Assembly: GCF_029227915.1 (NCBI RefSeq)
Contig: NC_079881.1
Coordinates: 21,737,501-21,801,500, forward strand
Origin: Hydractinia symbiolongicarpus
Taxonomy: Eukaryota; Cnidaria; Hydrozoa; Anthoathecata; Hydractiniidae
Length of the DNA stretch: 64,000 nucleotides
Direction: 5' to 3'
The translations under genes were made by a program, and so were the position numbers. Below the pieces are notes generated by a model. That model did no database searches. It saw only the letters and a list, made by a program, of their open reading frames with translations, and was not told the DNA's origin. Position 1 is the first letter of the stretch. The number at the start of each line of letters is the position of its first letter. Shown in pieces: positions 1 through 64,000 of this stretch.

Positions 1-9
1 ACTGGGACC
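1..9 (+). ncRNA. U4: U4 snRNA, 3' end of a copy cut by the window edge
   Basis: The first nine bases are the last nine of the U4 terminal hairpin (loop and 3' strand), followed by the usual 3' box. This shows the array continues to the left of the window. Confidence 0.9.
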
Positions 10-339
10 ATGCCTAAAAATAGAAATCTGCTGAGCTCACGAAGACTGCGTCGAATGCAAGAAAAGCGCAAAAATTCTTGTTTGCTCGCTTCCGAATGGA
101 GAAGAACCCTTTCGTGTAAAGCAGGACACATTATGCATCGCCTCTTTTCAACGCAACTGGTCACTTCCGCAGACGGTGGGCATTCTAGGTGTAAATGGCG
201 AATCAGTGGTGGAGACAAAGCGCTCGTTGCGGCACTGGCCCTTACTCTCACGACGACAACGGACACTTGTCTTAGTTCGGCTATGAATATGAAAACTGTT
301 TAAGTGGCACAAGGGAAAGGCGAGATGGGGACCAAAATG

Positions 340-358
340 CCGTAACCACAAGCAATCG
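340..358 (+). promoter_or_regulatory. Candidate PSE (proximal sequence element) of U4, unit 1
   Basis: CCGTAACC lies at -63 to -56 relative to U4 nucleotide 1, and CCGTAAC matches the CCNTAAC core of the vertebrate PSE at about the expected distance. No TATA-like sequence lies near -25, which fits Pol II rather than Pol III transcription. The element recurs at the same offset before every U4 copy. It is altered before copy 57 (CTGTAAC), copies 94-95 and 97-98 (ACGTAAC precedes 95 and 98), and in its 3' flank before copies 84 and 87. Invertebrate PSEs vary widely, so this is an inference from position and resemblance. Confidence 0.4.
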
Positions 359-402
359 ATAACGTTAAAGAAGCACGCGATGGTTGCCGTTCTTGTTGGG
401 TT

Positions 403-543
403 AGCTTTGCGCAGTGGCATTACCATAGCCAATGAGGTTTAACCGAGGCGTGGTGATTGCTAATTGAAAACTTTTCCCAATATCCCGCATGACGGCGTGA
501 AACATCGCCGGCGTTGCAATATTTGGAGGTTCCCACTGGGACC
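403..543 (+). ncRNA. U4: U4 spliceosomal snRNA, copy 1 of 98 (reference copy)
   Basis: U4 pairs with U6 in the U4/U6.U5 tri-snRNP and holds U6 inactive until Brr2 unwinds the duplex. The 141-nt RNA starts AGCUUUGCGCAGUGGC, which forms stem II with U6 CUGCGCAAGG. UGCUAAU (56-62) forms stem I with U6 AUUAGCA. Between them lies the 5' stem-loop with the SNU13/15.5K kink-turn: bulge A29-A30-U31, tandem G.A pairs G32/A44 and A33/G43, upper stem G34-C42 and G35-C41. A 3' stem-loop (about 85-115, core GGCG/CGCC), an Sm site AAUAUUUGG (116-124) and a terminal hairpin GGUUCCC-ACU-GGGACC (126-141) follow. Length is close to the ~145 nt of human U4. Nucleotide numbers in later entries refer to this copy, which carries the majority sequence. 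Confidence 0.97.
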
Positions 544-549
544 ATGCCT

Positions 550-558
550 AAAAATAGA
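550..558 (+). terminator. snRNA 3' box after U4 copy 1
   Basis: AAAAATAGA fits the AAARNNAGA half of the metazoan snRNA 3' box and begins seven bases after the RNA end. The 3' box directs Integrator-dependent 3' processing of Pol II snRNA transcripts. It recurs at this offset after nearly every copy. Exceptions: GGA for AGA after copies 76, 80 and 97; ACA after 36 and 38; a changed first base after 62; a changed third base after 74. The extra T that defines 535-bp units lies just after this box. Confidence 0.7.
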
Positions 559-936
559 AATCTGCTGAGCTCACGAAGACTGCGTCGAATGCAAGAAAAG
601 CGCAAAAATTCTTGTTTGCTCGCTTCCGAATGAAGAAGAACCCTTTCGTGTAAAGCAGGACACATTATGCATCGCCTCTTTTCAACGCAACTGGTCACTT
701 CCGCAGACGGTGGGCATTCTAGGTGTAAATGGCGAATCAGTGGTGGAGACAAAGCGCTCGTTGCGGCACTGGCCCTTACTCTCACGACGACAACGGACAC
801 TTGTCTTAGTTCGGCTATGAATATGAAAACTGTTTAAGTGGCACAAGGGAAAGGCGAGATGGGGACCAAAATGCCGTAACCACAAGCAATCGATAACGTT
901 AAAGAAGCACGCGATGGTTGCCGTTCTTGTTGGGTT

Positions 937-1077
937 AGCTTTGCGCAGTGGCATTACCATAGCCAATGAGGTTTAACCGAGGCGTGGTGATTGCTAATTG
1001 AAAACTTTTCCCAATATCCCGCATGACGGCGTGAAACATCGCCGGCGTTGCAATATTTGGAGGTTCCCACTGGGACC
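937..1077 (+). ncRNA. U4: U4 snRNA copy 2
   Basis: Identical to copy 1 by eye. The following unit has the extra T (535 bp). Confidence 0.95.
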
Positions 1078-1471
1078 ATGCCTAAAAATAGAAATCTTGC
1101 TGAGCTCACGAAGACTGCGTCGAATGCAAGAAAAGCGCAAAAATTCTTGTTTGCTCGCTTCCGAATGGAGAAGAACCCTTTCGTGTAAAGCAGGACACAT
1201 TATGCATCGCCTCTTTTCAACGCAACTGGTCACTTCCGCAGACGGCGGGCATTCTAGGTGTAAATGGCGAATCAGTGGTGGAGACAAAGCGCTCGTTGCG
1301 GCACTGGCCCTTACTCTCACGACGACAACGGACACTTGTCTTAGTTCGGCTATGAATATGAAAACTGTTTAAGTGGCACAAGGGAAAGGCGAGATGGGGA
1401 CCAAAATGCCGTAACCACAAGCAATCGATAACGTTAAAGAAGCACGCGATGGTTGCCGTTCTTGTTGGGTT

Positions 1472-1612
1472 GGCTTTGCGCAGTGGCATTACCATAGCCA
1501 ATGAGGTTTAACCGAGGCGTGGTGATTGCTAATTGAAAACTTTTCCCAATATCCCGCATGACGGCGTGAAACATCGCCGGCGTTGCAATATTTGGAGGTT
1601 CTCACTGGGACC
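1472..1612 (+). ncRNA. U4: U4 snRNA copy 3
   Basis: A1G at the first nucleotide; C131T keeps a U.G pair in the terminal hairpin. Confidence 0.93.
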
Positions 1613-2005
1613 ATGCCTAAAAATAGAAATCTGCTGAGCTCACGAAGACTGCGTCGAATGCAGGAAAAGCGCAAAAATTCTTGTTTGCTCGCTTCCGGAT
1701 GGAGAAGAATCCTTTCGCGTAAAGCAGGACACATTATGCATCGCCTCTTTTCAACGCAACTGGTCACTTCTGCAGACGGTGGGCATTCTAGGTGTAAATG
1801 GCGAATCAGTGGTGGAGACAAAGCGCTCGTTGCGGCACTGGCCCTTACTCTCACGACGACAACGGACACTTGTCTTAGTTCGGCTATGAATATGAAAACT
1901 GTTTAAGTGGCACAAGGGAAAGGCGAGATGGGGACCAAAATGCCGTAACCACAAGCAATCGATAACGTTAAAGAAGCACGCGATGGTTGCCGCTCTTGTT
2001 GGCTT

Positions 2006-2146
2006 AGCTTTGCGCAGTGGCATTACCATAGCCAATGAGGTTTAACCGAGGCGTGGTGATTGCTAATTGAAAACTTTTCCCAATATCCCGCATGACGGCG
2101 TGAAACATCGCCGGCGTTGCAATATTTGGAGGTTCCCACTGGGACC
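2006..2146 (+). ncRNA. U4: U4 snRNA copy 4
   Basis: Identical to copy 1 by eye. Confidence 0.95.
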
Positions 2147-2539
2147 ATGCCTAAAAATAGAAATCTGCTGAGCTCACGAAGACTGCGTCGAATGCAAGAA
2201 AAGCGCAAAAATTCTTGTTTGCTCGCTTCCGGATGGAGAAGAACCCTTTCGTGTAAAGCAGGACACATTATGCATCGCCTCTTTTCAACGCAACTGGTCA
2301 CTTCCGCAGACGGTGGGCATTCTAGGTGTAAATGGCGAATCAGTGGTGGAGACAAAGCGCTCGTTGCGGCACTGGCCCTTACTCTCACGACGACAACGGA
2401 CACTTGTCTTAGTTCGGCTATGAATATGAAAACTGTTTAAGTGGCACAAGGGAAAGGCGAGATGGGGACCAAAATGCCGTAACCACAAGCAATCGATAAC
2501 GTTAAAGAAGCACGCGATGGTTGCCGTTCTTGTTGGGTT

Positions 2540-2680
2540 AGCTTTGCGCAGTGGCATTACCATAGCCAATGAGGTTTAACCGAGGCGTGGTGATTGCTAT
2601 TTAAAAACTTTTCCCAATATCCCGCATGACGGCGTGAAACATCGCCGGCGTTGCAATATTTGGAGGTTCCCACTGGGACC
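2540..2680 (+). ncRNA. U4: U4 snRNA copy 5, stem I variant
   Basis: A61T and G64A. A61 pairs with U6 in stem I, so the change puts a U.U mismatch in the U4/U6 duplex. Possibly impaired. Confidence 0.9.
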
Positions 2681-3073
2681 ATGCCTAAAAATAGAAATCT
2701 GCTGAGCTCACGAAGACTGCGTCGAATGCAAGAAAAGCGCAAAAATTCTTGTTTGCTCGCTTCCGAATGGAGAAGAACCCTTTCGTGTAAAGCAGGACAC
2801 ATTATGCATCGCCTCTTTTCAACGCAACTGGTCACTTCCGCAGACGGTGGGCATTCTAGGTGTAAATGGCGAATCAGTGGTGGAGACAAAGCGCTCGTTG
2901 CGGCACTGGCCCTTACTCTCACGACGACAACGGACACTTGTCTTAGTTCGGCTATGAATATGAAAACTGTTTAAGTGGCACAAGGGAAAGGCGAGATGGG
3001 GACCAAAATGCCGTAACCACAAGCAATCGATAACGTTAAAGAAGCACGCGATGGTTGCCGTTCTTGTTGGGTT

Positions 3074-3214
3074 AGCTTTGCGCAGTGGCATTACCATAGC
3101 CAATGAAGTTTAACCGAGGCGTGGTGATTGCTATTTAAAAACGTTTCCCAATATCCCGCATGACGGCGTGAAACATCGCCGGCGTTGCAATATTTGGAGG
3201 TTCCCACTGGGACC
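3074..3214 (+). ncRNA. U4: U4 snRNA copy 6, stem I and 5' stem-loop variant
   Basis: Shares A61T and G64A with copy 5 and adds G34A (breaks G34-C42 next to the kink-turn) and T70G. One of the most altered copies in the left half; possible pseudogene. Confidence 0.88.
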
Positions 3215-3607
3215 ATGCCTAAAAATAGAAATCTGCTGAGCTCACGAAGACTGCGTCGAATGCAAGAAAAGCGCAAAAATTCTTGTTTGCTCGCTTCCGA
3301 ATGGAGAAGAACCCTTTCGTGTAAAGCAGGACACATTATGCATCGCCTCTTTTCAACGCAACTGGTCACTTCCGCAGACGGTGGGCATTCTAGGTGTAAA
3401 TGGCGAATCAGTGGTGGAGACAAAGCGCTCGTTGCGGCACTGGCCCTTACTCTCACGACGACAACGGACACTTGTCTTAGTTCGGCTATGAATATGAAAA
3501 CTGTTTAAGTGGCACAAGGGAAAGGCGAGATGGGGACCAAAATGCCGTAACCACAAGCAATCGATAACGTTAAAGAAGCACGCGATGGTTGCCGTTCTTG
3601 TTGTGTT

Positions 3608-3748
3608 AGCTTTGCGCAGTGGCATTACCATAGCCAATGAGGTTTAACCGAGGCGTGGTGATTGCTAATTGAAAACTTTTCCCAATATCCCGCATGACGG
3701 CGTGAAACATCGCCGGTGTTGCAATATTTGGAGGTTCCCACTGGGACC
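3608..3748 (+). ncRNA. U4: U4 snRNA copy 7
   Basis: C110T only; a G89.U110 wobble is kept in the 3' stem-loop. Confidence 0.94.
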
Positions 3749-4141
3749 ATGCCTAAAAATAGAAATCTGCTGAGCTCACGAAGACTGCGTCGAATGCAAG
3801 AAAAGCGCAAAAATTCTTGTTTGCTCGCTTCCGAATGGAGAAGAACCCTTTCGTGTAAAGCAGGACACATTATGCATCGCCTCTTTTCAACGCAATTGGT
3901 CACTTCCGCAGACGGTGGGCATTCTAGGTGTAAATGGCGAATCAGTGGTGGAGACAAAGCGCTCGTTGCGGCACTGGCCCTTACTCTCACGACGACAACG
4001 GACACTTGTCTTAGTTCGGCTATGAAAATGAAAACTGTTTAAGTGGCACAAGGGAAAGGCGAGATGGGGACCAAAATGCCGTAACCACAAGCAATCGATA
4101 ACGTTAAAGAAGCACGCGATGGTTGCCGTTCTTGTTGGGTT

Positions 4142-4282
4142 AGCTTTGCGCAGTGGCATTACCATAGCCAATGAGGTTTAACCGAGGCGTGGTGATTGCT
4201 AATTGAAAACTTTTCCCAATATCCCGCATGACGGCGTGAAACATCGCCGGCGTTGCAATATTTGGAGGTTCCCACTGGGACC
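4142..4282 (+). ncRNA. U4: U4 snRNA copy 8
   Basis: Identical to copy 1 by eye. Confidence 0.95.
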
Positions 4283-4675
4283 ATGCCTAAAAATAGAAAT
4301 CTGCTGAGCTCACGAAGACTGCGTCGAATGCAAGAAAAGCGCAAAAATTCTTGTTTGCTCGCTTCCGAATGGAGAAGAACCCTTTCGTGTAAAGCAGGAC
4401 ACATTATGCATCGCCTCTTTTCAACGCAACTGGTCACTTCCGCAGACGGTGGGCATTCTAGGTGTAAATGGCGAATCAGTGGTGGAGACAAAGCGCTCGT
4501 TGCGGCACTGGCCCTTACTCTCACGACGACAACGGACACTTGTCTTAGTTCGGCTATGAATATGAAAACTGTTTAAGTGGCACAAGGGAAAGGCGAGATG
4601 GGGACCAAAATGCCGTAACCACAAGCAATCGATAACGTTAAAGAAGCACGCGATGGTTGCCGTTCTTGTTGGGTT

Positions 4676-4816
4676 AGCTTTGCGCAGTGGCATTACCATA
4701 GCCAATGAGGTTTAACCGAGGCGTGGTGATTGCTAATTGAAAACTTTTCCCAATATCCCGCATGACGGCGTGAAACATCGCCGGCGTTGCAATATTTGGA
4801 GGTTCCCACTGGGACC
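4676..4816 (+). ncRNA. U4: U4 snRNA copy 9
   Basis: Identical to copy 1 by eye. Confidence 0.95.
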
Positions 4817-5209
4817 ATGCCTAAAAATAGAAATCTGCTGAGCTCACGAAGACTGCGTCGAATGCAAGAAAAGCGCAAAAATTCTTGTTTGCTCGCTTCC
4901 GAATGGAAAAGAACCCTTTCGTGTAAAGCAGGACACATTATGCATCGCCTCTTTTCAACGCAACTGGTCACTTCCGCAGACGGTGGGCATTCTAGGTGTA
5001 AATGGCGAATCAGTGGTGGAGACAAAGCGCTCGTTGCGGCACTGGCCCTTACTCTCACGACGACAACGGACACTTGTCTTAGTTCGGCTATGAATATGAA
5101 AACTGTTTAAGTGGCACAAGGGAAAGGCGAGATGGGGACCAAAATGCCGTAACCACAAGCAATCGATAACGTTAAAGAAGCACGCGATGGTTGCCGTTCT
5201 TGTTGGGTT

Positions 5210-5350
5210 AGCTTTGCGCAGTGGCATTACCATAGCCAATGAGGTTTAACCGAGGCGTGGTGATTGCTAATTGAAAACTTTTCCCAATATCCCGCATGAC
5301 GGCGTGAAACATCGCCGGCGTTGCAATATTTGGAGGTTCCCACTGGGACC
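5210..5350 (+). ncRNA. U4: U4 snRNA copy 10
   Basis: Identical to copy 1 by eye. Confidence 0.95.
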
Positions 5351-5743
5351 ATGCCTAAAAATAGAAATCTGCTGAGCTCACGAAGACTGCGTCGAATGCA
5401 AGAAAAGCGCAAAATTTCTTGTTTGCTCGCTTCCGAATGGAGAAGAACCCTTTCGTGTAAAGCAGGACACATTATGCATCGCCTCTTTTCAACGCAACTG
5501 GTCACTTCCGCAGACGGTGGGCATTCTAGGTGTAAATGGCGAATCAGTGGTGGAGACAAAGCGCTCGTTGCGGCACTGGCCCTTACTCTCACGACGACAA
5601 CGGACACTTGTCTTAGTTCGGCTATGAATATGAAAACTGTTTAAGTGGCACAAGGGAAAGGCGAGATGGGGACCAAAATGCCGTAACCACAACCAATCGA
5701 TAACGTTAAAGAAGCACGCGATGGTTGCCGTTCTTGTTGGGTT

Positions 5744-5884
5744 AGGTTTGCGCAGTGGCATTACCATAGCCAATGAGGTTTAACCGAGGCGTGGTGATTG
5801 CTAATTGAAAACTTTTCCCAATATCCCGCATGACGGCGTGAAACATCGCCGGCGTTGCAATATTTGGAGGTTCCCACTGGGACC
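5744..5884 (+). ncRNA. U4: U4 snRNA copy 11
   Basis: C3G, at the outer end of stem II with U6. Confidence 0.93.
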
Positions 5885-6277
5885 ATGCCTAAAAATAGAA
5901 ATCTGCTGAGCTCACGAAGACTGCGTCGAATGCAAGAAAAGCGCAAAAGTTCTTGTTTGCTCGCTTCCGAATGGAGAAGAACCCTTTCGTGTAAAGCAGG
6001 ACACATTATGCATCGCCTCTTTTCAACGCAACTGGTCACTTCCGCAGACGGTGGGCATTCTAGGTGTAAATGGCGAATCAGTGGTGGAGACAAAGCGCTC
6101 GTTGCGGCACTGGCCCTTACTCTCACGACGACAACGGACACTTGTCTTAGTTCGGCTATGAATATGAAAACTGTTTAAGTGGCACAAGGGAAAGGCGAGA
6201 TGGGGACCAAAATGCCGTAACCACAAGCAATCGATAACGTTAAAGAAGCACGCGATGGTTGCCGTTCTTGTTGGGTT

Positions 6278-6418
6278 AGCTTTGCGCAGTGGCATTACCA
6301 TAGCCAATGAGGTTTAACCGAGGCGTGGTGATTGCTAATTGAAAACTTTTCCCAATATCCCGCATGACGGCGTGAAACATCGCCGGCGTTGCAATATTTG
6401 GAGGTTCCCACTGGGACC
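6278..6418 (+). ncRNA. U4: U4 snRNA copy 12
   Basis: Identical to copy 1 by eye. Confidence 0.95.
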
Positions 6419-6811
6419 ATGCCTAAAAATAGAAATCTGCTGAGCTCACGAAGACTGCGTCGAATGCAAGAAAAGCGCAAAAATTCTTGTTTTCTCGCTT
6501 CCGAATGGAGAAGAACCCTTTCGTGTAAAGCAGGACACATTATGCATCGCCTCTTTTCAACGCAACTGGTCACTTCCGCAGACGGTGGGCATTCTAGGTG
6601 TAAATGGCGAATCAGTGGTGGAGACAAAGCGCTTGTTGCGGCACTGGCCCTTACTCTCACGACGACAACGGACACTTGTCTTAGTTCGGCTATGAATATG
6701 AAAACTGTTTAAGCGGCACAAGGGAAAGGCGAGATGGAGACCAAAATGCCGTAACCACAAGCAATCGATAACGTTAAAGAAGCACGCGATGGTTGCCGTT
6801 CTTGTTGGGTT

Positions 6812-22831: not shown

Positions 22832-22972
22832 AGCTTTGCGCAGTGGCATTACCATAGCCAATGAGGTTTAACCGAGGCGTGGTGATTGCTAATTGAAAAC
22901 TTTTCCCAATATCCCGCATGACGGCGTGAAACATCGCCGGCGTTGCAATATTTGGAGGTTCCCACTGGGACC
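22832..22972 (+). ncRNA. U4: U4 snRNA copy 43
   Basis: RNA identical to copy 1. First of 15 consecutive copies followed by the extra T of 535-bp units. Confidence 0.95.
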
Positions 22973-23366
22973 ATGCCTAAAAATAGAAATCTTGCTGAGC
23001 TCACGAAGACTGCGTCGAATGCAAGAAAAGCGCAAAAATTCTTGTTTGCTCGCTTCCGAATGGAGAAGAACCCTTTCGTGTAAAGCAGGACACATTATGC
23101 ATCGCCTCTTTTCAACGCAACTGGTCACTTCCGCAGACGGTGGGCATTCTAGGTGTAAATGGCGAATCAGTGGTGGAGACAAAGCGCTCGTTGCGGCACC
23201 GGCCCTTACTCTCACGACGACAACGGACACTTGTCTTAGTTCGGCTATGAATATGAAAACTGTTTAAGTGGCACAAGGGAAAGGCGAGATGGGGACCAAA
23301 ATGCCGTAACCACAAGCAATCGATAACGTTAAAGAAGCACGCGATGGTTGCCGTTCTTGTTGGGTT

Positions 23367-23507
23367 AGCTTTGCGCAGTGGCATTACCATAGCCAATGAG
23401 GTTTAACCGAGGCGTGATGATTCCTAATTGAAAACTTTTCCCAATATCCCGCATGACGGCGTGAAACATCGCCGGCGTTGCAATATTTGGAGGTTCCCAC
23501 TGGGACC
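23367..23507 (+). ncRNA. U4: U4 snRNA copy 44, stem I variant
   Basis: G51A and G57C; G57C breaks a pair of stem I with U6. Same changes in copy 48, four units on. Confidence 0.9.
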
Positions 23508-23901
23508 ATGCCTAAAAATAGAAATCTTGCTGAGCTCACGAAGACTGCGTCGAATGCAAGAAAAGCGCAAAAATTCTTGTTTGCTCGCTTCCGAATGGAG
23601 AAGAACCCTTTCGTGTAAAGCAGGACACATTATGCATCGCCTCTTTTCAACGCAACTGGTCACTTCCGCAGACGGTGGGCATTCTAGGTGTAAATGGCGA
23701 ATCAGTGGTGGAGACAAAGCGCTCGTTGCGGCACTGGCCCTTACTCTCACGATGACAACGGACACTTGTCTTAGTTCGGCTATGAATATGAAAACTGTTT
23801 AAGTGGCACAAGGGAAAGGCGAGACGGGGACCAAAATGCCGTAACCACAAGCAATCGATAACGTTAAAGAAGCACGCGATGGTTGCCGTTCTTGTTGGGT
23901 T

Positions 23902-24042
23902 AGCTTTGCGCAGTGGCATTACCATAGCCAATGAGGTTTAACCGAGGCGTGGTGATTGCTAATTGAAAACTTTTCCCAATATCCCGCATGACGGCGTGAA
24001 ACATCGCCGGCGTTGCAATATTTGGAGGTTCCCACTGGGACC
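23902..24042 (+). ncRNA. U4: U4 snRNA copy 45
   Basis: Identical to copy 1 by eye. Confidence 0.95.
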
Positions 24043-24436
24043 ATGCCTAAAAATAGAAATCTTGCTGAGCTCACGAAGACTGCGTCGAATGCAAGAAAAG
24101 CGCAAAAATTCTTGTTTGCTCGCTTCCGAATGGAGAAGAACCCTTTCGTGTAAAGCAGGACACATTATGCATCGCCTCTTTTCAACGCAACTGGTCACTT
24201 CCGCAGACGGTGGGCATTCTAGGTGTAAATGGCGAATCAGTGGTGGAGACAAAGCGCTCGTTGCGGCACTGGCCCTTACTCTCACGACGACAACGGACAC
24301 TTGTCTTAGTTCGGCTATGAATATGAAAACTGTTTAAGTGGCACAAGGGAAAGGCGAGATGGGGACCAAAATGCCGTAACCACAAGCAATCGATAACGTT
24401 AAAGAAGCACGCGATGGTTGCCGTTCTTGTTGGGTT

Positions 24437-24577
24437 AGCTTTGCGCAGTGGCATTACCATAGCCAATGAAGTTTAACCGAGGCGTGGTGATTGCTAATTG
24501 AAAACTTTTCCCAATATCCCGCATGACGGCGTGAAACATCGCCGGCGTTGCAATATTTGGAGGTTCCCACTGGGACC
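24437..24577 (+). ncRNA. U4: U4 snRNA copy 46
   Basis: G34A breaks G34-C42; shared with copy 50. Confidence 0.92.
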
Positions 24578-24971
24578 ATGCCTAAAAATAGAAATCTTGC
24601 TGAGCTCACGAAGACTGCGTCGAATGCAAGAAAAGCGCAAAAATTCTTGTTTGCTCGCTTCCGAATGGAGAAGAACCCTTTCGTGTAAAGCAGGACACAT
24701 TATGCATCGCCTCTTTTCAACGCAACTGGTCACTTCCGCAGACGGTGGGCATTCTAGGTGTAAATGGCGAATCAGTGGTGGAGACAAAGCGCTCGTTGCG
24801 GCACTGGCCCTTACTCTCACGACGACAACGGACACTTGTCTTAGTTCGGCTATGAATATGAAAACTGTTTAAGTGGCACAAGGGAAAGGCAAGATGGGGA
24901 CCAAAATGCCGTAACCACAAGCAATCGATAACGTTAAGAAAGCACGCGATGGTTGCCGTTCTTGTTGGGTT

Positions 24972-25112
24972 AGCTTTGCGCAGTGGCATTACCATAGCCA
25001 ATGAGGTTTAACCGAGGCGTGGTGATTGCTAATTGAAAACTTTTCCCAATATCCCGCATGACGGCGTGAAACATCGCCGGCGTTGCAATATTTGGAGGTT
25101 CCCACTGGGACC
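24972..25112 (+). ncRNA. U4: U4 snRNA copy 47
   Basis: RNA identical to copy 1; its upstream spacer has marker changes shared with copies 51 and 54. Confidence 0.95.
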
Positions 25113-25506
25113 ATGCCTAAAAATAGAAATCTTGCTGAGCTCACGAAGACTGCGTCGAATGCAAGAAAAGCGCAAAAATTCTTGTTTGCTCGCTTCCGAA
25201 TGGAGAAGAACCCTTTCGTGTAAAGCAGGACACATTATGCATCGCCTCTTTTCAACGCAACTGGTCACTTCCGCAGACGGTGGGCATTCTAGGTGTAAAT
25301 GGCGAATCAGTGGTGGAGACAAAGCGCTCGTTGCGGCACCGGCCCTTACTCTCACGACGACAACGGACACTTGTCTTAGTTCGGCTATGAATATGAAAAC
25401 TGTTTAAGTGGCACAAGGGAAAGGCGAGATGGGGACCAAAATGCCGTAACCACAAGCAATCGATAACGTTAAAGAAGCACGCGATGGTTGCCGTTCTTGT
25501 TGGGTT

Positions 25507-25647
25507 AGCTTTGCGCAGTGGCATTACCATAGCCAATGAGGTTTAACCGAGGCGTGATGATTCCTAATTGAAAACTTTTCCCAATATCCCGCATGACGGC
25601 GTGAAACATCGCCGGCGTTGCAATATTTGGAGGTTCCCACTGGGACC
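25507..25647 (+). ncRNA. U4: U4 snRNA copy 48, stem I variant
   Basis: G51A and G57C, duplicate of copy 44. Confidence 0.9.
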
Positions 25648-26041
25648 ATGCCTAAAAATAGAAATCTTGCTGAGCTCACGAAGACTGCGTCGAATGCAAG
25701 AAAAGCGCAAAAATTCTTGTTTGCTCGCTTCCGAATGGAGAAGAACCCTTTCGTGTAAAGCAGGACACATTATGCATCGCCTCTTTTCAACGCAACTGGT
25801 CACTTCCGCAGACGGTGGGCATTCTAGGTGTAAATGGCGAATCAGTGGTGGAGACAAAGCGCTCGTTGCGGCACTGGCCCTTACTCTCACGACGACAACG
25901 GACACTTGTCTTAGTTCGGCTATGAATATGAAAACTGTTTAAGTGGCACAAGGGAAAGGCGAGACGGGGACCAAAATGCCGTAACCACAAGCAATCGATA
26001 ACGTTAAAGAAGCACGCGATGGTTGCCGTTCTTGTTGGGTT

Positions 26042-26182
26042 AGCTTTGCGCAGTGGCATTACCATAGCCAATGAGGTTTAACCGAGGCGTGGTGATTGCT
26101 AATTGAAAACTTTTCCCAATATCCCGCATGACGGCGTGAAACATCGCCGGCGTTGCAATATTTGGAGGTTCCCACTGGGACC
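26042..26182 (+). ncRNA. U4: U4 snRNA copy 49
   Basis: Identical to copy 1 by eye. Confidence 0.95.
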
Positions 26183-26576
26183 ATGCCTAAAAATAGAAAT
26201 CTTGCTGAGCTCACGAAGACTGCGTCGAATGCAAGAAAAGCGCAAAAATTCTTGTTTGCTCGCTTCCGAATGGAGAAGAACCCTTTCGTGTAAAGCAGGA
26301 CACATTATGCATCGCCTCTTTTCAACGCAACTGGTCACTTCCGCAGACGGTGGGCATTCTAGGTGTAAATGGCGAATCAGTGGTGGAGACAAAGCGCTCG
26401 TTGCGGCACTGGCCCTTACTCTCACGACGACAACGGACACTTGTCTTAGTTCGGCTATGAATATGAAAACTGTTTAAGTGGCACAAGGGAAAGGCGAGAT
26501 GGGGACCAAAATGCCGTAACCACAAGCAATCGATAACGTTAAAGAAGCACGCGATGGTTGCCGTTCTTGTTGGGTT

Positions 26577-26717
26577 AGCTTTGCGCAGTGGCATTACCAT
26601 AGCCAATGAAGTTTAACCGAGGCGTGGTGATTGCTAATTGAAAACTTTTCCCAATATCCCGCATGACGGCGTGAAACATCGCCGGCGTTGCAATATTTGG
26701 AGGTTCCCACTGGGACC
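26577..26717 (+). ncRNA. U4: U4 snRNA copy 50
   Basis: G34A, duplicate of copy 46. Confidence 0.92.
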
Positions 26718-27111
26718 ATGCCTAAAAATAGAAATCTTGCTGAGCTCACGAAGACTGCGTCGAATGCAAGAAAAGCGCAAAAATTCTTGTTTGCTCGCTT
26801 CCGAATGGAGAAGAACCCTTTCGTGTAAAGCAGGACACATTATGCATCGCCTCTTTTCAACGCAACTGGTCACTTCCGCAGACGGTGGGCATTCTAGGTG
26901 TAAATGGCGAATCAGTGGTGGAGACAAAGCGCTCGTTGCGGCACTGGCCCTTACTCTCACGACGACAACGGACACTTGTCTTAGTTCGGCTATGAATATG
27001 AAAACTGTTTAAGTGGCACAAGGGAAAGGCAAGATGGGGACCAAAATGCCGTAACCACAAGCAATCGATAACGTTAAGAAAGCACGCGATGGTTGCCGTT
27101 CTTGTTGGGTT

Positions 27112-27252
27112 AGCTTTGCGCAGTGGCATTACCATAGCCAATGAGGTTTAACCGAGGCGTGGTGATTGCTAATTGAAAACTTTTCCCAATATCCCGCATG
27201 ACGGCGTGAAACATCGCCGGCGTTGCAATATTTGGAGGTTCCCACTGGGACC
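27112..27252 (+). ncRNA. U4: U4 snRNA copy 51
   Basis: Identical to copy 1 by eye. Confidence 0.95.
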
Positions 27253-27646
27253 ATGCCTAAAAATAGAAATCTTGCTGAGCTCACGAAGACTGCGTCGAAT
27301 GCAAGAAAAGCGCAAAAATTCTTGTTTGCTCGCTTCCGAATGGAGAAGAACCCTTTCGTGTAAAGCAGGACACATTATGCATCGCCTCTTTTCAACGCAA
27401 CTGGTCATTTCCGCAGACGGTGGGCATTCTAGGTGTAAATGACGAATCAGTGGTGGAGACAAAGCGCCCGTTGCGGCACTGGCCCTTACTCTCACGACGA
27501 CAACGGACACTTGTCTTAGTTCGGCTATGAATATGAAAACTGTTTAAGTGGCACAAGGGAAAGGCGAGATGGGGACCAAAATGCCGTAACCACAAGCAAT
27601 CGATAACGTTAAAGAAGCACGCGATGGTTGCCGTTCTTGTTGGGTT

Positions 27647-27787
27647 AGCTTTGCGCAGTGGCATTACCATAGCCAATGAGGTTTAACCGAGGCGTGGTGA
27701 TTGCTAATTGAAAACTTTTCCCAATATCCCGCATGACGGCGTGAAACATCGCCGGCGTTGCAATATTTGGAGGTTCCCACTGGGACC
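27647..27787 (+). ncRNA. U4: U4 snRNA copy 52
   Basis: Identical to copy 1 by eye. Confidence 0.95.
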
Positions 27788-28181
27788 ATGCCTAAAAATA
27801 GAAATCTTGCTGAGCTCACGAAGACTGCGTCGAATGCAAGAAAAGCGCAAAAATGCTTGTTTGCTCGCTTCCGAATGGAGAAGAACCCTTTCGTGTAAAG
27901 CAGGACACATTATGCATCGCCTCTTTTCAACGCAACTGGTCACTTCCGCAGACGGTGGGCATTCTAGGTGTAAATGGCGAATCAGTGGTGGAGACAAAGC
28001 GCTCGTTGCGGCACTGGCCCTTACTCTCACGACGACAACGGACACTTGTCTTAGTTCGGCTATGAATATGAAAACTGTTTAAGTGGCACAAGGGAAAGGC
28101 GAGATGGGGACCAAAATGCCGTAACCACAAGCAATCGATAACGTTAAAGAAGCACGCGATGGTTGCCGTTCTTGTTGGGTT

Positions 28182-28322
28182 AGCTTTGCGCAGTGGCATT
28201 ACCATAGCCAATGAGGTTTAACCGAGGCGTGATGATTGCTAATTGAAAACTTTTCCCAATATCCCGCATGACGGCGTGAAACATCGCCGGCGTTGAAATA
28301 TTTGGAGGTTCCCACTGGGACC
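28182..28322 (+). ncRNA. U4: U4 snRNA copy 53
   Basis: G51A and C115A, the latter at the base of the 3' stem-loop; shared with copy 56. Confidence 0.92.
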
Positions 28323-28716
28323 ATGCCTAAAAATAGAAATCTTGCTGAGCTCACGAAGACTGCGTCGAATGCAAGAAAAGCGCAAAAATTCTTGTTTGCT
28401 CGCTTCCGAATGGAGAAGAACCCTTTCGTGTAAAGCAGGACACATTATGCATCGCCTCTTTTCAACGCAACTGGTCACTTCCGCAGACGGTGGGCATTCT
28501 AGGTGTAAATGGCGAATCAGTGGTGGAGACAAAGCGCTCGTTGCGGCACTGGCCCTTACTCTCACGACGACAACGGACACTTGTCTTAGTTCGGCTATGA
28601 ATATGAAAACTGTTTAAGTGGCACAAGGGAAAGGCAAGATGGGGACCAAAATGCCGTAACCACAAGCAATCGATAACGTTAAGAAAGCACGCGATGGTTG
28701 CCGTTCTTGTTGGGTT

Positions 28717-28857
28717 AGCTTTGCGCAGTGGCATTACCATAGCCAATGAGGTTTAACCGAGGCGTGGTGATTGCTAATTGAAAACTTTTCCCAATATCCC
28801 GCATGACGGCGTGAAACATCGCCGGCGTTGCAATATTTGGAGGTTCCCACTGGGACC
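28717..28857 (+). ncRNA. U4: U4 snRNA copy 54
   Basis: Identical to copy 1 by eye. Confidence 0.95.
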
Positions 28858-29251
28858 ATGCCTAAAAATAGAAATCTTGCTGAGCTCACGAAGACTGCGT
28901 CGAATGCAAGAAAAGCGCAAAAATTCTTGTTTGCTCGCTTCCGAATGGAGAAGAACCCTTTCGTGTAAAGCAGGACACATTATGCATCGCCTCTTTTCAA
29001 CGCAACTGGTCATTTCCGCAGACGGTGGGCATTCTAGGTGTAAATGACGAATCAGTGGTGGAGACAAAGCGCCCGTTGCGGCACTGGCCCTTACTCTCAC
29101 GACGACAACGGACACTTGTCTTAGTTCGGCTATGAATATGAAAACTGTTTAAGTGGCACAAGGGAAAGGCGAGATGGGGACCAAAATGCCGTAACCACAA
29201 GCAATCGATAACGTTAAAGAAGCACGCGATGGTTGCCGTTCTTGTTGGGTT

Positions 29252-29392
29252 AGCTTTGCGCAGTGGCATTACCATAGCCAATGAGGTTTAACCGAGGCGT
29301 GGTGATTGCTAATTGAAAACTTTTCCCAATATCCCGCATGACGGCGTGAAACATCGCCGGCGTTGCAATATTTGGAGGTTCCCACTGGGACC
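29252..29392 (+). ncRNA. U4: U4 snRNA copy 55
   Basis: Identical to copy 1 by eye. Confidence 0.95.
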
Positions 29393-29786
29393 ATGCCTAA
29401 AAATAGAAATCTTGCTGAGCTCACGAAGACTGCGTCGAATGCAAGAAAAGCGCAAAAATGCTTGTTTGCTCGCTTCCGAATGGAGAAGAACCCTTTCGTG
29501 TAAAGCAGGACACATTATGCATCGCCTCTTTTCAACGCAACTGGTCACTTCCGCAGACGGTGGGCATTCTAGGTGTAAATGGCGAATCAGTGGTGGAGAC
29601 AAAGCGCTCGTTGCGGCACTGGCCCTTACTCTCACGACGACAACGGACACTTGTCTTAGTTCGGCTATGAATATGAAAACTGTTTAAGTGGCACAAGGGA
29701 AAGGCGAGATGGGGACCAAAATGCCGTAACCACAAGCAATCGATAACGTTAAAGAAGCACGCGATGGTTGCCGTTCTTGTTGGGTT

Positions 29787-29927
29787 AGCTTTGCGCAGTG
29801 GCATTACCATAGCCAATGAGGTTTAACCGAGGCGTGATGATTGCTAATTGAAAACTTTTCCCAATATCCCGCATGACGGCGTGAAACATCGCCGGCGTTG
29901 AAATATTTGGAGGTTCCCACTGGGACC
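29787..29927 (+). ncRNA. U4: U4 snRNA copy 56
   Basis: G51A and C115A, duplicate of copy 53 three units earlier. Confidence 0.92.
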
Positions 29928-30321
29928 ATGCCTAAAAATAGAAATCTTGCTGAGCTCACGAAGACTGCGTCGAATGCAAGAAAAGCGCAAAAATTCTTGT
30001 TTGCTCGCTTCCGAATGGAGAAGAACCCTTTCGTGTAAAGCAGGACACATTATGCATCGCCTCTTTTCAACGCAACTGGTCACTTCCGCAGACGGTGGGC
30101 ATTCTAGGTGTAAATGGCGAATCAGTGGTGGAGACAAAGCGCTCGTTGCGGCACTGGCCCTTACTCTCACGACGACAACGGACACTTGTCTTAGTTCGGC
30201 TATGAATATGAAAACTGTTTAAGTGGCACAAGGGAAAGGCGAGATGGTGACCAAAATGCTGTAACCACAAGCAATCGATAACGTTAAAGAAGCACGCGAT
30301 GGTTGCCGTTCTTGTTGGGTT

Positions 30322-30462
30322 AGCTTTGCGCAGTGGCATTACCATAGCCAATGAGGTTTAACCGAGGCGTGGTGATTGCTAATTGAAAACTTTTCCCAAT
30401 ATCCAGCATGACGGCGTGAAACATCGCCGGCGTTGCAATATTTGGAGGTTCCCACTGGGACC
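30322..30462 (+). ncRNA. U4: U4 snRNA copy 57
   Basis: C84A; the PSE-like element before it reads CTGTAAC. Confidence 0.93.
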
Positions 30463-30856
30463 ATGCCTAAAAATAGAAATCTTGCTGAGCTCACGAAGAC
30501 TGCGTCGAATGCAAGAAAAGCGCAAAAATTCTTGTTTGCTCGCTTCCGAATGGAGAAGAACCCTTTCGTGTAAAGCAGGACACATTATGCATCGCCTCTT
30601 TTCAACGCAACCGGTCACTTCCGCAGACGGTGGGCATTCTAGGTGTAAATGGCGAATCAGTGGTGGAGACAAATCGCTCGTTGCGGCACTGGCCCTTACT
30701 CTCACGACGACAACGGACACTTGTCTTAGTTCGGCTATGAATATGAAAACTGTTTAAGTGGCACAAGGGAAAGGCGAGATGGGGACCAAAATGCCGTAAC
30801 CACAAGCAATCGATAACGTTAAAGAAGCACGCGATGGTTGCCGTTCTTGTTGGGTT

Positions 30857-30997
30857 AGCTTTGCGCAGTGGCATTACCATAGCCAATGAGGTTTAACCGA
30901 GGCGTGGTGATTGCTAATTGAAAACTTTTCCCAATATCCCGCATGACGGCGTGAAACATCGCCGGCGTTGCAATATTTGGAGGTTCCCACTGGGACC
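30857..30997 (+). ncRNA. U4: U4 snRNA copy 58
   Basis: RNA identical to copy 1; the run of 535-bp units ends here. Confidence 0.95.
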
Positions 30998-45954: not shown

Positions 45955-46347
45955 ATGCCTAAAAATAGAAATCTGCTGAGCTCACGAAGACTGCGTCGAA
46001 TGCAAGAAAAGCGCAAAAATTCTTGTTTGCTCGCTTCCGAATGGAGAAGAACCCTTTCGTGTAAAGCAGGACACATTATGCATCGCCTCTTTTCTACGCA
46101 ACTGGTCGCTTCCGCAGACGGTGGGCATTCTAGGTGTAAATGGCGAATCAGTGGTGGAGACAAAGCGCTCGTTTCGGCACTGGCCCTTACTCTCACGACG
46201 ACAACGGACACTTGTCTTAGTTCGGCTATGAATATGAAAACTGTTTAAGTGGCACAAGGGAAAGGCGAGATGGGGACCAAAATGCCGTAACCACAAGCAA
46301 TCGATAACGTTAAAGAAGCACGCGATGGTTGCCGTTCTTGTTGGGTT

Positions 46348-46488
46348 AGTTTTGCGCAGTGGCATTACCATAGCCAATGAGGTTTAACCGAGGCGTGGTG
46401 ATTGCTAATTGAAAACTTTTCCCAATATCCCGCATGACGGCGTGAAACATCGCCGGCGTTGCAATACTTGGAGGTTCCCACTGGGACC
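46348..46488 (+). ncRNA. U4: U4 snRNA copy 87
   Basis: C3T and T120C (in the Sm site, shared with copy 86). The next unit is 507 bp: a 26-bp deletion near 46,590 and one lost base near 46,790. Confidence 0.91.
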
Positions 46489-46854
46489 ATGCCTAAAAAT
46501 AGAAATCTGCTGAGCTCACGAAGACTGCGTCGAATGCAAGAAAAGCGCAAAAATTCTTGTTTGTTCGCTTCCGAAAGGAGAAGAACCCTATCGCCTCTTT
46601 TCAACGCAACTGGTCGCTTCCGCAGACGGTGGGCATTCTAGGTGTAAATGGCGAATCAGTGGTGGAGACAAAGCGCTCGTTGCGGCACTGGCCCTTACTC
46701 TCACGACGACAACGGACACTTGTCTTAGTTCGGCTATGAATATGAAAACTGTTTAAGTGGCACAAGGGAAAGGCGAGATGGGGACCAAATGCCGTAACCA
46801 CAAGCAATTGATAATGTTAAAGAAGCACGCGATGGTTGCCGTTCTTGTTGGGTT

Positions 46855-46995
46855 AGCTTTGCGCAGTGGCATTACCATAGCCAATGAGGTTTAACCGAGG
46901 CGTGGTGATTGCTAATTGAAAACTTTTCCCAATATCCTGCATGACCGCGTGAAACATCGCCGGCGTTGCAATATTTGGAGGTTCCCACTGGGACC
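46855..46995 (+). ncRNA. U4: U4 snRNA copy 88
   Basis: C84T and G92C; G92C breaks G92-C107 of the 3' stem-loop. Shared with copy 91. Its upstream spacer carries the 26-bp deletion. Confidence 0.9.
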
Positions 46996-47388
46996 ATGCC
47001 CAAAAATAGAAATCTGCTGAGCTCACGAAGACTGCGTCGAATGCAAGAAAAGCGCAAAAATTCTTGTTTGCTCGCTTCCGAACGGAGAAGAACCCTTTCG
47101 GGTAAAGCAGGACACATTATGCATCGCCTCTTTTCAACGCAACTGGTCACTTCCGCAGACGGTGGGAATTTTAGGTGTAAATGGCGAATCAGTGGTGGAG
47201 ACAAAGCGCTCGTTGCGGCACTGGCCCTTACTCTCACGACGACAACGGACACTTGTCTTAGTTCGGCTATGAATATGAAAACTGTTTAGGTGGCACAAGG
47301 GAAAGGTGAGATGGGGACCAAAATGCCGTAACCACAAGCAATCAATAACGTTAAAGAAGCACGCGATGGTTGCCGTTCTTGTTGGGTT

Positions 47389-47529
47389 AGCTTTGCGCAG
47401 TGGCATTACCATAGCCAATGAGGTTTAACCGAGGCGTGGTGATTGCTAATTGAAAACTTTTCCCAATATCCCGCATGCCGGCGTCAAACATCGCCGGCGT
47501 TGCAATATTTGGAGGTTCCCACTGGGACC
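47389..47529 (+). ncRNA. U4: U4 snRNA copy 89, 3' stem-loop subfamily
   Basis: A90C repairs the A90/G109 mismatch to C-G; G97C in the loop. Confidence 0.91.
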
Positions 47530-47922
47530 ATGCCTAAAAATAGAATTCTGCTGAGCTCACGAAGACTGTGTCGAATGCAAGAAAAGCGCAAAAATTCTTG
47601 TTTGCTCGCTTCCGAATGGAGAAGAACCCTTTCGTGTAAAGCAGGACACATTATGCATCGCCTCTTTTCAACGCAACTGGTCGCTTCCGCAGACGGTGGG
47701 CATTCTAGGTGTAAATGGCGAATCAGTGGTGGAGACAAAGCGCTCGTTGCGGCACTGGCCCTTACTCTCACGACGACAACGGACACTTGTCTTAGTTCGG
47801 CTATGAATATGAAAACTGTTTAAGTGGCACAAGGGAAAGGCGAGATGGGGACCAAAATGCCGTAACCACAAGCAATCGATAACGTTAAAGAAGCACGCGA
47901 TGGTTGCCGTTCTTGTTGGGTT

Positions 47923-48063
47923 AGCTTTGCGCAGTGGCATTACCATAGCCAATGAGGTTTAACCGAGGCGTGGTGATTGCTAATTGAAAACTTTTCCCAA
48001 TATCCCGCATGACGGCGTGAAACATCGCCGGCGTTGCAATATTTGGAGGTTCCCACTGGGACC
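47923..48063 (+). ncRNA. U4: U4 snRNA copy 90
   Basis: RNA identical to copy 1. The next unit is 508 bp with the same 26-bp deletion near 48,164. Confidence 0.95.
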
Positions 48064-48430
48064 ATGCCTAAAAATAGAAATCTGCTGAGCTCACGAAGAC
48101 TTTGTCGAATGCAAGAAAAACGCAAAAATTCTTGTTTGCTCGCTTCCGAATGGAGAAGAACCCTATCGCCTCTTTTCAACGCAACTGGTCGCTTCCGCAG
48201 ACGGTGGGCATTCTAAGTGTAAATGGCGAATCAGTGGTGGAGACAAAGCGCTCGTTGCGGCACTGGCCCTTACTCTCACGACGACAACGGACACTTGTCT
48301 TAGTTCGGCTATGAATATGAAAACTGTTTAAGTGGCACAAGGGAAAGGCGAGATGGGGACCAAAATGCCGTAACCACAAGCAATTGATAATGTTAAAGAA
48401 GCACGCGATGGTTGCCGTTCTTGTTGGGTT

Positions 48431-48571
48431 AGCTTTGCGCAGTGGCATTACCATAGCCAATGAGGTTTAACCGAGGCGTGGTGATTGCTAATTGAAAACT
48501 TTTCCCAATAACCTGCATGACCGCGTGAAACATCGCCGGCGTTGCAATATTTGGAGGTTCCCACTGGGACC
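48431..48571 (+). ncRNA. U4: U4 snRNA copy 91
   Basis: T81A, C84T and G92C; near-duplicate of copy 88. Confidence 0.9.
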
Positions 48572-48964
48572 ATGCCTAAAAATAGAAATCTGCTGAGCTC
48601 ACGAAGACTGCGTCGAATGCAAGAAAAGCGCAAAAATTCTTGTTTGCTCGCTTCCGAACGGAGAAGAACCCTTTCGGGTAAAGCAGGACACATTATGCAT
48701 CGCCTCTTTTCAACGCAACTGGTCACTTCCGCAGACGGTGGGAATTTTAGGTGTAACTGGCGAATCAGTGGTGGAGACAAAGCGCTCGTTGCGGCACTGG
48801 CCCTTACTCTCACGACGACAACAGACACTTGTCTTAGTTCGGCTATGAATATGAAAACTGTTTAGGTGGCACAAGGGAAAGGCGAGATGGGGACCAAAAT
48901 GCCGTAACCACAAGCAATCGATAACGTTAAAGAAGCACGCGATGGTTGCCGTTCTTGTTGTGTT

Positions 48965-49104
48965 AGCTTTGCGCAGTGGCATTACCATAGCCAATGAGGT
49001 TTAACCGAGGCGTGGTGATTGCTAATTGAAAACTTTTCCCAATATCCGCATGCCGGCGTCAAACATCGCCGGCGTTGCAATATTTGGAGGTTCCCACTGG
49101 GACC
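48965..49104 (+). ncRNA. U4: U4 snRNA copy 92, 140 nt, 3' stem-loop subfamily
   Basis: One C of the run at 82-84 is lost; A90C and G97C. Duplicate of copy 95. Confidence 0.9.
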
Positions 49105-49497
49105 ATGCCTAAAAATAGAATTCTGCTGAGCTCACGAAGACTGTGTCGAATGCAAGAAAAGCGCAAAAATTCTTGTTTGCTCGCTTCCGAATGGAGAAGA
49201 ACCCTTTCGTGTAAAGCAGGACACATTATGCATCGCCTCTTTTCAACGCAACTGGTCGATTCCGCAGACGGTGGGCATTCTAGGTGTAAATGGCGAATCA
49301 GTGGTGGAGACAAAGCGCTCGTTGCGGCACTGGCCCTTACTCTCACGACGACAACGGACACTTGTCTTAGTTCGGCTATGAATATGAAAACTGTTTAAGT
49401 GGCACAAGGGAAAGGCGAGATGGGGACCAAAATGCCGTAACCACAAGCAATCGATAACGTTAAAGAAGCACGCGATGGTTGCCGTTCTTGTTGGGTT

Positions 49498-49638
49498 AGC
49501 TTTGCGCAGTGGCATTACCATAGCCAATGAGGTTTAACCGAGGCGTGGTGATTGCTAATTGAAAACTTTTCCCAATATCCCGCATGCCGTTGTCAAACAT
49601 CGCCGGCGTTGCAATATTTGGAGGTTCCCACTGGGACC
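49498..49638 (+). ncRNA. U4: U4 snRNA copy 93, 3' stem-loop subfamily
   Basis: A90C, G93T, C94T and G97C; G93T puts a mismatch in the stem. Confidence 0.9.
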
Positions 49639-50031
49639 ATGCCTAAAAATAGAATTCTGCTGAGCTCACAAAGACTGTGTCGAATGCAAGAAAAGCGCAA
49701 AAATTCTTGTTTGCTCGCTTCCGAATGGAGAAGAACCCTTTCGTGTAAAGCAGGACACATTATGCATCGCCTCTTTTCAACGCAACTGATCACTTCCGCA
49801 GACGGTGGGCATTCTAGGTGTAAATGGCGAATCAGTGGTGGAGACAAAGCGCTCGTTGCGGCACTGGCCCTTACTCTCACGACGACAACGGACACTTGTC
49901 TTAGTTCGGCTATGAATATGAAAACTGTTTAAGTTGCACAAGGGAAAGGCGAGATGGGGACCAAAATGACGTAACCACAAGCAATCGATAACGTTAAAGA
50001 AGCACGCGATGGTTGCCGTTCTTGTTGGGTT

Positions 50032-50172
50032 AGCTTTGCGCAGTGGCATTACCATAGCCAATGAGGTTTAACCGAGGCGTGGTGATTGCTAATTGAAAAC
50101 TTTTCCCAATATCCCGCATGACGGCGTGAAACATCGCCGGCGTTGCAATATTTGGAGGTTTCCACTGGGACC
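50032..50172 (+). ncRNA. U4: U4 snRNA copy 94
   Basis: C130T, kept as U.G in the terminal hairpin. Confidence 0.93.
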
Positions 50173-50565
50173 ATGCCTAAAAATAGAAATCTGTTGAGCT
50201 CACGAAGACTGCGTCGAATGCAAGAAAAGCGCAAAAATTCTTGTTTGCTCGCTTTCGAATGGAGAAGAACCCTTTCGTGTAAAGCAGGACACATTATGCA
50301 TCGCCTCTTTTCAACGCAACTGGTTACTTCCGCAGACGGTGGGCATTCTAGTTGTAAATGGCGAATCACTGGTGAAGACAAAGCGCTCGTTGCGGCACTG
50401 GCCCTTACTCTCACGACGACAACGGACACTTGTCTTAGTTCGGCTATGAATATGAAAACTGTTTAAGTGGCACAAGGGAAAGGCGAGATGGGGACCAAAA
50501 TGCCGTAACCACAAGCAATCGATAACGTTAAAGAAGCACCCGATGGTTGCCGTTCTTGTTGGGTT

Positions 50566-50705
50566 AGCTTTGCGCAGTGGCATTACCATAGCCAATGAGG
50601 TTTAACCGAGGCGTGGTGATTGCTAATTGAAAACTTTTCCCAATATCCGCATGCCGGCGTCAAACATCGCCGGCGTTGCAATATTTGGAGGTTCCCACTG
50701 GGACC
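50566..50705 (+). ncRNA. U4: U4 snRNA copy 95, 140 nt, 3' stem-loop subfamily
   Basis: Same single-base loss, A90C and G97C as copy 92, 1,601 bp upstream. Confidence 0.9.
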
Positions 50706-51098
50706 ATGCCTAAAAATAGAATTCTGCTGAGCTCACGAAGACTGTGTCGAATGCAAGAAAAGCGCAAAAATTCTTGTTTGCTCGCTTCCGAATGGAGAAG
50801 AACCCTTTCGTGTAAAGCAGGACACATTATGCATCGCCTCTTTTCAACGCAACTGGTCGATTCCGCAGACGGTGGGCATTCTAGGTGTAAATGGCGAATC
50901 AGTGGTGGAGACAAAGCGCTCGTTGCGGCACTGGCCCTTACTCTCACGACGACAACGGACACTTGTCTTAGTTCGGCTATGAATATGAAAACTGTTTAAG
51001 TGGCACAAGGGAAAGGCGAGATGGGGACCAAAATGCCGTAACCACAAGCAATCGATAACGTTAAAGAAGCACGCGATGGTTGCCGTTCTTGTTGGGTT

Positions 51099-51239
51099 AG
51101 ATTTGCGCAGTGGCATTACCATAGCCAATGAGGTTTAACCGAGGCGTGGTGATTGCTAATTGAAAACTTTTCCCAATATCCCGCATGCCGTTGTCAAACA
51201 TCGCCGGCGTTGCAATATTTGGAGGTTCCCACTGGGACC
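51099..51239 (+). ncRNA. U4: U4 snRNA copy 96, 3' stem-loop subfamily
   Basis: C3A plus the copy 93 set A90C, G93T, C94T, G97C. Confidence 0.89.
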
Positions 51240-51632
51240 ATGCCTAAAAATAGAATTCTGCTGAGCTCACAAAGACTGTGTCGAATGCAAGAAAAGCGCA
51301 AAAATTCTTGTTTGCTCGCTTCCGAATGGAGAAGAACCCTTTCGTGTAAAGCAGGACACATTATGCATCGCCTCTTTTCAACGCAACTGATCACTTCCGC
51401 AGACGGTGGGCATTCTAGGTGTAAATGGCGAATCAGTGGTGGAGACAAAGCGCTCGTTGCGGCACTGGCCCTTACTCTCACGACGACAACGGACACTTGT
51501 CTTAGTTCGGCTATGAATATGAAAACTGTTTAAGTTGCACAAGGGAAAGGCGAGATGGGGACCAAAATGACGTAACCACAAGCAATCGATAACGTTAAAG
51601 AAGCACGCGATGGTTGCCGTTCTTGTTGGGTT

Positions 51633-51773
51633 AGCTTTGCGCAGTGGCATTACCATAGCCAATGAGGTTTAACCGAGGCGTGGTGATTGCTAATTGAAAA
51701 CTTTTCCCAATATCCCGCATGACGGCGTGAAACATCGCCGGCGTTGCAATATTTGGAGGTTCCCACTGGGACC
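51633..51773 (+). ncRNA. U4: U4 snRNA copy 97
   Basis: RNA identical to copy 1 although its spacer downstream (51,905-51,975) is among the most diverged; 3' box GGA variant. Confidence 0.95.
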
Positions 51774-52166
51774 ATGCCTAAAAATGGAAATCTGCTGAGC
51801 TCACGAAGACTGCGTCGAATGCAAGAAAAGCGCAAAAATTCTTGTTTGCTCGCTTCCGAATGGAGAAGAACCCTTTCGTGTAAAGCAGGACACATTATGC
51901 ATCGCCTCTTTTTAACGCAACAGGTGACTTCTGGAGACGTTGGGCATGCTAGGTGTAAATGTCGAATCAGTAGTGGAGACAAAGCGCTCGTTGCGGCACT
52001 GGCCCTTACTCTCACGACGACAACGGACACTTGTCTTAGTTCGGCTATGAATATGAAAACTCTTTAAGTGTCACAAGGGAAAGGCGAGACGGGGACCAAA
52101 ATGCCGTAACCACAAGCAATCGATAACGTTAAAGAAGCACGCGATGGTTTCCATTCTTGTTGTGTT

Positions 52167-52307
52167 AGCTTTGCGCAGTGACATTACCATAGCCAATGAG
52201 GTTTAACCGAGGCGTGGTGATTGCTAATTGAAAACTTTTCCCAATATCCCGCATGACGGCGTGAAACATCGCCGGCGTTGCAATATTTGGAGGTTCTCAC
52301 TGGGACC
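52167..52307 (+). ncRNA. U4: U4 snRNA copy 98, last of the array
   Basis: G15A and C131T only, so the terminal copy is still well kept although the spacer after it breaks up within 90 bp. A normal 3' box follows. It points toward the convergent calcium-channel gene 500 bp away. Confidence 0.93.
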
Positions 52308-52390
52308 ATGCCTAAAAATAGAAATCTGCTGAGCTCACGAAGACCGCGTCGAATGCAAGAAAAGCGCAAAAATTCTTGTTTGCTCGCTTG

Positions 52391-52807: not shown

Positions 52808-64000
<11,193 letters not shown>

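Follow-up and report, generated by a model that had tools for sequence, protein, structure and literature searches.

Tandem arrays of non-coding RNA (ncRNA) genes are known from both Hydractinia genomes. In the passages of Schnitzler et al. 2024 (PMC11067881) that describe them, the arrayed small nuclear RNA (snRNA) genes are named as U1, U2, U5 and U6 – U4 is not named – and the arrays also include U3, ribosomal RNA and transfer RNA (tRNA) genes; Nematostella is credited with 5S, tRNA and U5 arrays and the other cnidarians examined with none. The main text of the HSymV2.0 genome paper (PMC10411563) does not contain the word 'snRNA'. Here we describe a 64,000-nucleotide stretch of chromosome 7 (C7:21737501–21801500) of Hydractinia symbiolongicarpus assembly HSymV2.0, hereafter 'the window', which very probably represents the downstream fifth of a working, closed array of 498 short U4 units of RNA polymerase II type, homogenised and supplying U4 RNA in bulk. 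U4 is thus the fifth major splicing RNA to be added to the published Hydractinia arrays, which covered four of the five, and the kind of array is already known: as in those arrays from the same species, copies are evenly spaced and both copies and spacers are near-identical. The supplement of the array paper may note a U4 array in one species. Perhaps U4 was missed in older assemblies, or is arrayed in one of the two species.

The primate RNU2 (U2) array is likewise described as a tandem snRNA array under concerted evolution, with a longer unit and far fewer copies than the U4 array. In Hydractinia echinata, a composite 5998-bp repeat carries histone, 5S, tRNA, U1 and U2 genes (passages of PMC5011920), whereas U4 stands alone in the unit described here; the H. 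symbiolongicarpus U1+U2 repeat reported below resembles it, as far as U1 and U2 go. U4 itself forms one site visible by fluorescence in situ hybridization, on one chromosome pair, in a characid fish (PMC8056886, whose relevant passages state neither a repeat unit nor a copy number). In Schistosoma mansoni, 19 U4 sequences share a single type of short flanking sequence; this is far fewer than here, and the authors allow a range of 1 to 19 (passages of PMC2770079). An earlier note on this DNA held that U4 usually occurs in a few dispersed copies; as the fish clusters indicate, that generalisation does not hold everywhere. Among the papers listed in searches of the open-licence literature, none showed a sequenced U4-only array.

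Within the window, full-length covariance-model matches to Rfam RF00015 (model positions 1–138 of 138) identified 98 U4 genes, all on the + strand, with scores of 106.1–121.6 bits against a gathering score of 46. The 97 intervals between them measure 534 bp (70), 535 bp (22), 533 bp (3), 507 bp (1) and 508 bp (1). Higher-order repeats are limited to two pairs of two-unit blocks that reappear unchanged at distances of 3 and 4 units. The near-consensus stretch stops at about 52389 on the right and continues past the left window edge. The array and the elements of its first complete unit are as follows.

1..52389, + strand: downstream portion of the U4 array, with 98 of its 498 genes (from Rfam matches, spacing and a reading of the full array)
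337..357, + strand: PSE-like (proximal sequence element-like) element at -66 of the U4 gene at 403..543; exact before 88 of the 98 window genes, with at most one substitution before all 98
403..543, + strand: first whole U4 gene in the window (Rfam match 403–541, 120.4 bits; the 3' end at 543 was set by us)
420..456, + strand: 5' stem-loop with kink-turn (k-turn) of this gene, located from the Rfam alignment of a different copy; 77 of the 98 window copies match exactly
518..526, + strand: putative Sm site, AATATTTGG, of this gene; exact in 94 of 98
548..561, + strand: 3'-box-like element downstream of this gene; exact after 82 of the 98 window genes, with at most one substitution after all 98

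The U4 gene at 403..543 equals the consensus and recurs exactly in 46 of the 98 window copies, 40 of which have both control-like elements exact as well. The 5' stem-loop with k-turn, the U6-pairing strands and the Sm site are all present in U4, and each is exact in 77 to 94 of the 98 copies. The names PSE, 3' box and Sm site are assigned by resemblance to general consensus sequences. No other RNA family scored above threshold in the window in the Rfam search, and a permissive Rfam search of positions 350–1100 returned no other credible RNA in the unit. These results uphold the earlier note's description of at least 98 U4-only genes at ~534-bp spacing, each with control-like elements of its own, running off the window, and its placement of U4 at nucleotides 403–543.

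To the left, the array extends far beyond the window. We read C7:21514001–21801500 (287,500 bases, 0 N) and found 498 U4 genes that form an uninterrupted block of 266 kb; the first gene starts at C7:21524303 and the last at 21789667, and about one fifth of the block lies inside the window. Spacing is as regular as in the window (497 intervals: 534 bp, 460; 535 bp, 27; 533 bp, 8; 507 bp, 1; 508 bp, 1), and at its upstream edge the array gives way abruptly to unique DNA. Exact U4 sequences occur in 352 of the 498 copies, and in 329 the U4, the PSE-like element and the 3'-box-like element are all exact. Among 497 units 261 are distinct, the commonest type being present 143 times. The longest run of identical units is 16 and the longest exact self-repeat is ~8.5 kb; because the HiFi reads of HSymV2.0 have an N50 of 13.2 kb (PMC10411563), longer than this self-repeat, the assembled length is plausible. 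A U4 sequence pattern had no matches in a viral contig collection, and a pattern from upstream in the unit had none in a genome contig collection that may leave out records of the Hydractinia genome.

The earlier note held this U4 dosage to be far above what one-to-one pairing with U6 would seem to require, unless U6 is amplified as well or early development calls for very high synthesis. We searched the genome (480.9 Mb in 76 contigs, slightly unlike the published 482.9 Mb in 84 sequences given in PMC10411563) for other snRNA genes; results for U1, U2 and U5 are drawn from the best-scored matches among candidates and show arrangement, not copy number. Of the best 42 U1 matches (6,568 candidates), 41 lie on C9 and one on C4, and all 46 of the best U2 matches (110,725 candidates) lie on C9 between 7.1 and 12.3 Mb. 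Among the matches listed, U2 stands 377 bp before U1 in a common repeat of ~5.85 kb, usually 5852 or 5876 bp, and at C9:7.1–7.3 Mb these repeats switch strand in several-unit blocks, unlike the U4 array. For U5, 45 of the best 46 matches (54,636 candidates) lie at 18.20–18.81 Mb on C11, with one at 20.84 Mb, and nearest neighbours among those listed are 668–669 bp apart. U1, U2 and U5 are therefore also tandem in this assembly, and large arrays of U1, U2, U5 and U6 have been published (passages of PMC11067881), so the dosage puzzle largely dissolves and the idea that U4 stands out in dosage is not supported. Together, the U4 array, the U1+U2 and U5 arrays that we observed and the published U6 array would supply spliceosomal RNA in bulk. 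Proportional upkeep of five snRNAs through gene number becomes testable.

All 42 best-scored U4 matches in the genome fall within two arrays – that described above and a second, inverted array near the end of C7, 11 Mb away. We read second-array units at C7:33003897, 33004431, 33011040–33021727 and 33104355–33111831, a minor part of the array. All five samples taken from 33120001 to 33200001 were also array sequence, with eight Rfam matches besides, and the array breaks off partway through a unit where a 500-N gap begins, at 33204353. If unbroken from 33011040, it holds ~362 units. Its left flank is the inverted homologue of the first array's right flank, 94–99% identical over the stretches aligned (98.9% over 703 bp, and 95.9% over 700 bp ~24 kb out), and the two share the same decayed junction with a neighbouring calcium channel gene, Cav3. 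Because of this shared junction and the stop at the 500-N gap, the second array may be an unpurged alternative haplotype; it may otherwise be a true inverted duplicate. The number of U4 genes per haploid genome is therefore 498 or roughly 860, depending on the reading. We also considered an inversion that split one array in two and rejected it: it predicts a fresh left edge for the second array, and that edge has the decayed junction of the first.

A LINE-like (long interspersed nuclear element-like) insertion separates the second array's two outermost units from the remainder; C7:33004500–33010620, near the downstream edge, contains open frames that by eye resemble a non-LTR (long terminal repeat) retrotransposon. 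Past the 500-N gap, samples of C7:33204853–33220700 contain repeated sequence with tRNA genes, one sample having one tRNA-Gln and two tRNA-Val (ARAGORN) and some samples N runs of up to 62. The chromosome end (33300001–33300700 and 33313801–33314500) appears by eye to be satellite with a unit of ~200 bp.

We next consider how the units are kept alike. Across window units 1–85, U4 has 34 variable columns out of 141 and the spacer 103 out of 393 (p = 0.65). The two are likewise similar in distinct alleles per site (U4 0.69, spacer 0.66) in 475 of the first array's 497 units, 22 near the upstream edge being excluded. Mean variant load is 3.5 per kb in U4 and 5.4 per kb in the spacer, a gap to which a few common spacer variants add. 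Since U4 and spacer are about equally variable, the array is homogenised, and homogenisation rather than copy-by-copy selection best explains the sameness of its units. The array has the one orientation, the high identity that includes the spacer and the greater divergence at one edge (below) characteristic of concerted evolution. Most likely, then, the gene array is expressed, and concerted evolution maintains the likeness of its units. Unequal exchange and gene conversion would keep units alike, spacer included, and because the spacer is included selection would act on the whole array more than on single copies. Free of gaps, the 498-unit array makes models of concerted evolution testable unit by unit.

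Several observations weigh against this account. A total of 146 of the 498 copies differ from the U4 consensus, and among the 98 window copies 12 have a changed k-turn core and 6 a changed stem I strand. The PSE-like and 3'-box-like elements, at fixed places, were judged against general consensus sequences for such elements. Selection on individual U4 copies was considered and not clearly seen: within the array, U4 does not appear clearly better conserved than the spacer. Comparison with 29 second-array units gave identical U4 consensus sequences and spacer consensus sequences that differ at six sites, and this zero-versus-six split is weak (~0.16 by chance, calculated by hand). Three of the six sites are polymorphic in the first array, where 22–42% of units have the second-array base, and at only one of the six is the difference nearly fixed.

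Fifteen successive units at 22833–30857 share a single-T insertion following the 3' box, a footprint of local exchange; six other units carry this insertion singly. G/C to A/T variants number 106 in the window's 97 units and the reverse 44. GC content is ~48% in the array (1–52389) and 32–34% in the flank (54001–64000).

Divergence in the first array is graded by position. Averaged over 25-unit blocks, the number of differences between a unit and the consensus is 0.12 in the upstream-edge block and 11.96 in the downstream-edge block, the climb between them not being strictly monotonic, and in the same 475 units divergence correlates with position (Spearman 0.75) while exact U4 copies per 50 units drop from 47 to 31, with 6 in the last 25. 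Two observations run counter to a simple gradient – the last-but-one U4 of the first array is exact consensus, as are the outermost five U4 genes of the second. In the parts read, the second array leans the same way, unevenly: units near its downstream edge have 2–15 differences from its own consensus, the outermost fewer than units deeper in the array, and units lying 90 kb inward have 0–5. Its upstream end is the contig break. The one-sided gradient of the first array is unlike what even unequal exchange predicts. Turnover would be fastest toward the upstream edge, with downstream-edge units drifting. The gradient may have arisen because the array grows at its upstream edge, because an older edge on that side was lost, or through a recent sweep by a single unit type. 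That the array has a growing upstream end and a dying downstream end, with identical units newly formed near the former and ageing as they are left behind, such that position along the 266 kb records unit age, is unlikely, because loss of an older upstream edge is simpler; if it were true, RNA-gene arrays could extend directionally rather than being evened out from the middle.

We weighed three alternatives to a working, homogenised array. The first is that the array is a U4-derived satellite, in which unequal exchange has carried most units along in a silent state and the RNA comes from a few of them or from U4 genes at other loci. Satellite turnover would be expected to produce the similar variability of gene and spacer reported above. 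We nonetheless think this unlikely, given the 352 of 498 copies with an exact U4 and the 329 with exact control-like elements as well, the confinement of the 42 best-scored U4 matches to the two arrays (other U4 genes being possible beyond those 42), and the arrangement of U1, U2 and U5 in arrays too.

Distinctly unlikely is a second alternative, that this is a stage-specific U4 set used in the oocyte or embryo while other U4 genes serve adult tissue. Developmental switching of U4 isoforms in Xenopus and chicken, as stated in a passage of PMC4291461, provides a precedent; against it, no second U4 type occurs among the best 42 matches listed, and transcription of the U1, U2 and 5S repeats of H. 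echinata extends to every stage studied, according to passages of PMC5011920. It is very improbable that array length is an assembly artefact, by false expansion or the joining of two haplotypes: near-identical units (143 of them identical), the abrupt upstream edge of the first array and the break of the second at the 500-N gap would fit, but the first array has no N, its longest exact self-repeat falls short of the read N50, unit variants are distributed along it, and the passages of PMC11067881 argue against artefact for other Hydractinia RNA arrays.

The remainder of the window holds the decayed edge of the array and the neighbouring Cav3 gene.

52390..52495 (end approximate), + strand: decayed unit remnant at the array edge, common to the inverted second array; 80–86% identical to the unit, with the same junction at C7:33003.8 kb
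52808..64000 (extent approximate), - strand: T-type calcium channel (Cav3) gene, cut short by the end of the window, identified by Ion_trans in open frames and a structure match

Ion_trans was found in five of the seven frames scanned in this flank, four of those above the curated cut-off, and one frame has Cav3 structures as its best match; the C-terminal frame gave no Pfam match. An (AAGGAG)n tract of 55.7 copies (53605–53938) lies beside or inside the last Cav3 exons, and a similar but interrupted (AAGGAG)n tract is present in the second array's inverted homologue of this flank.

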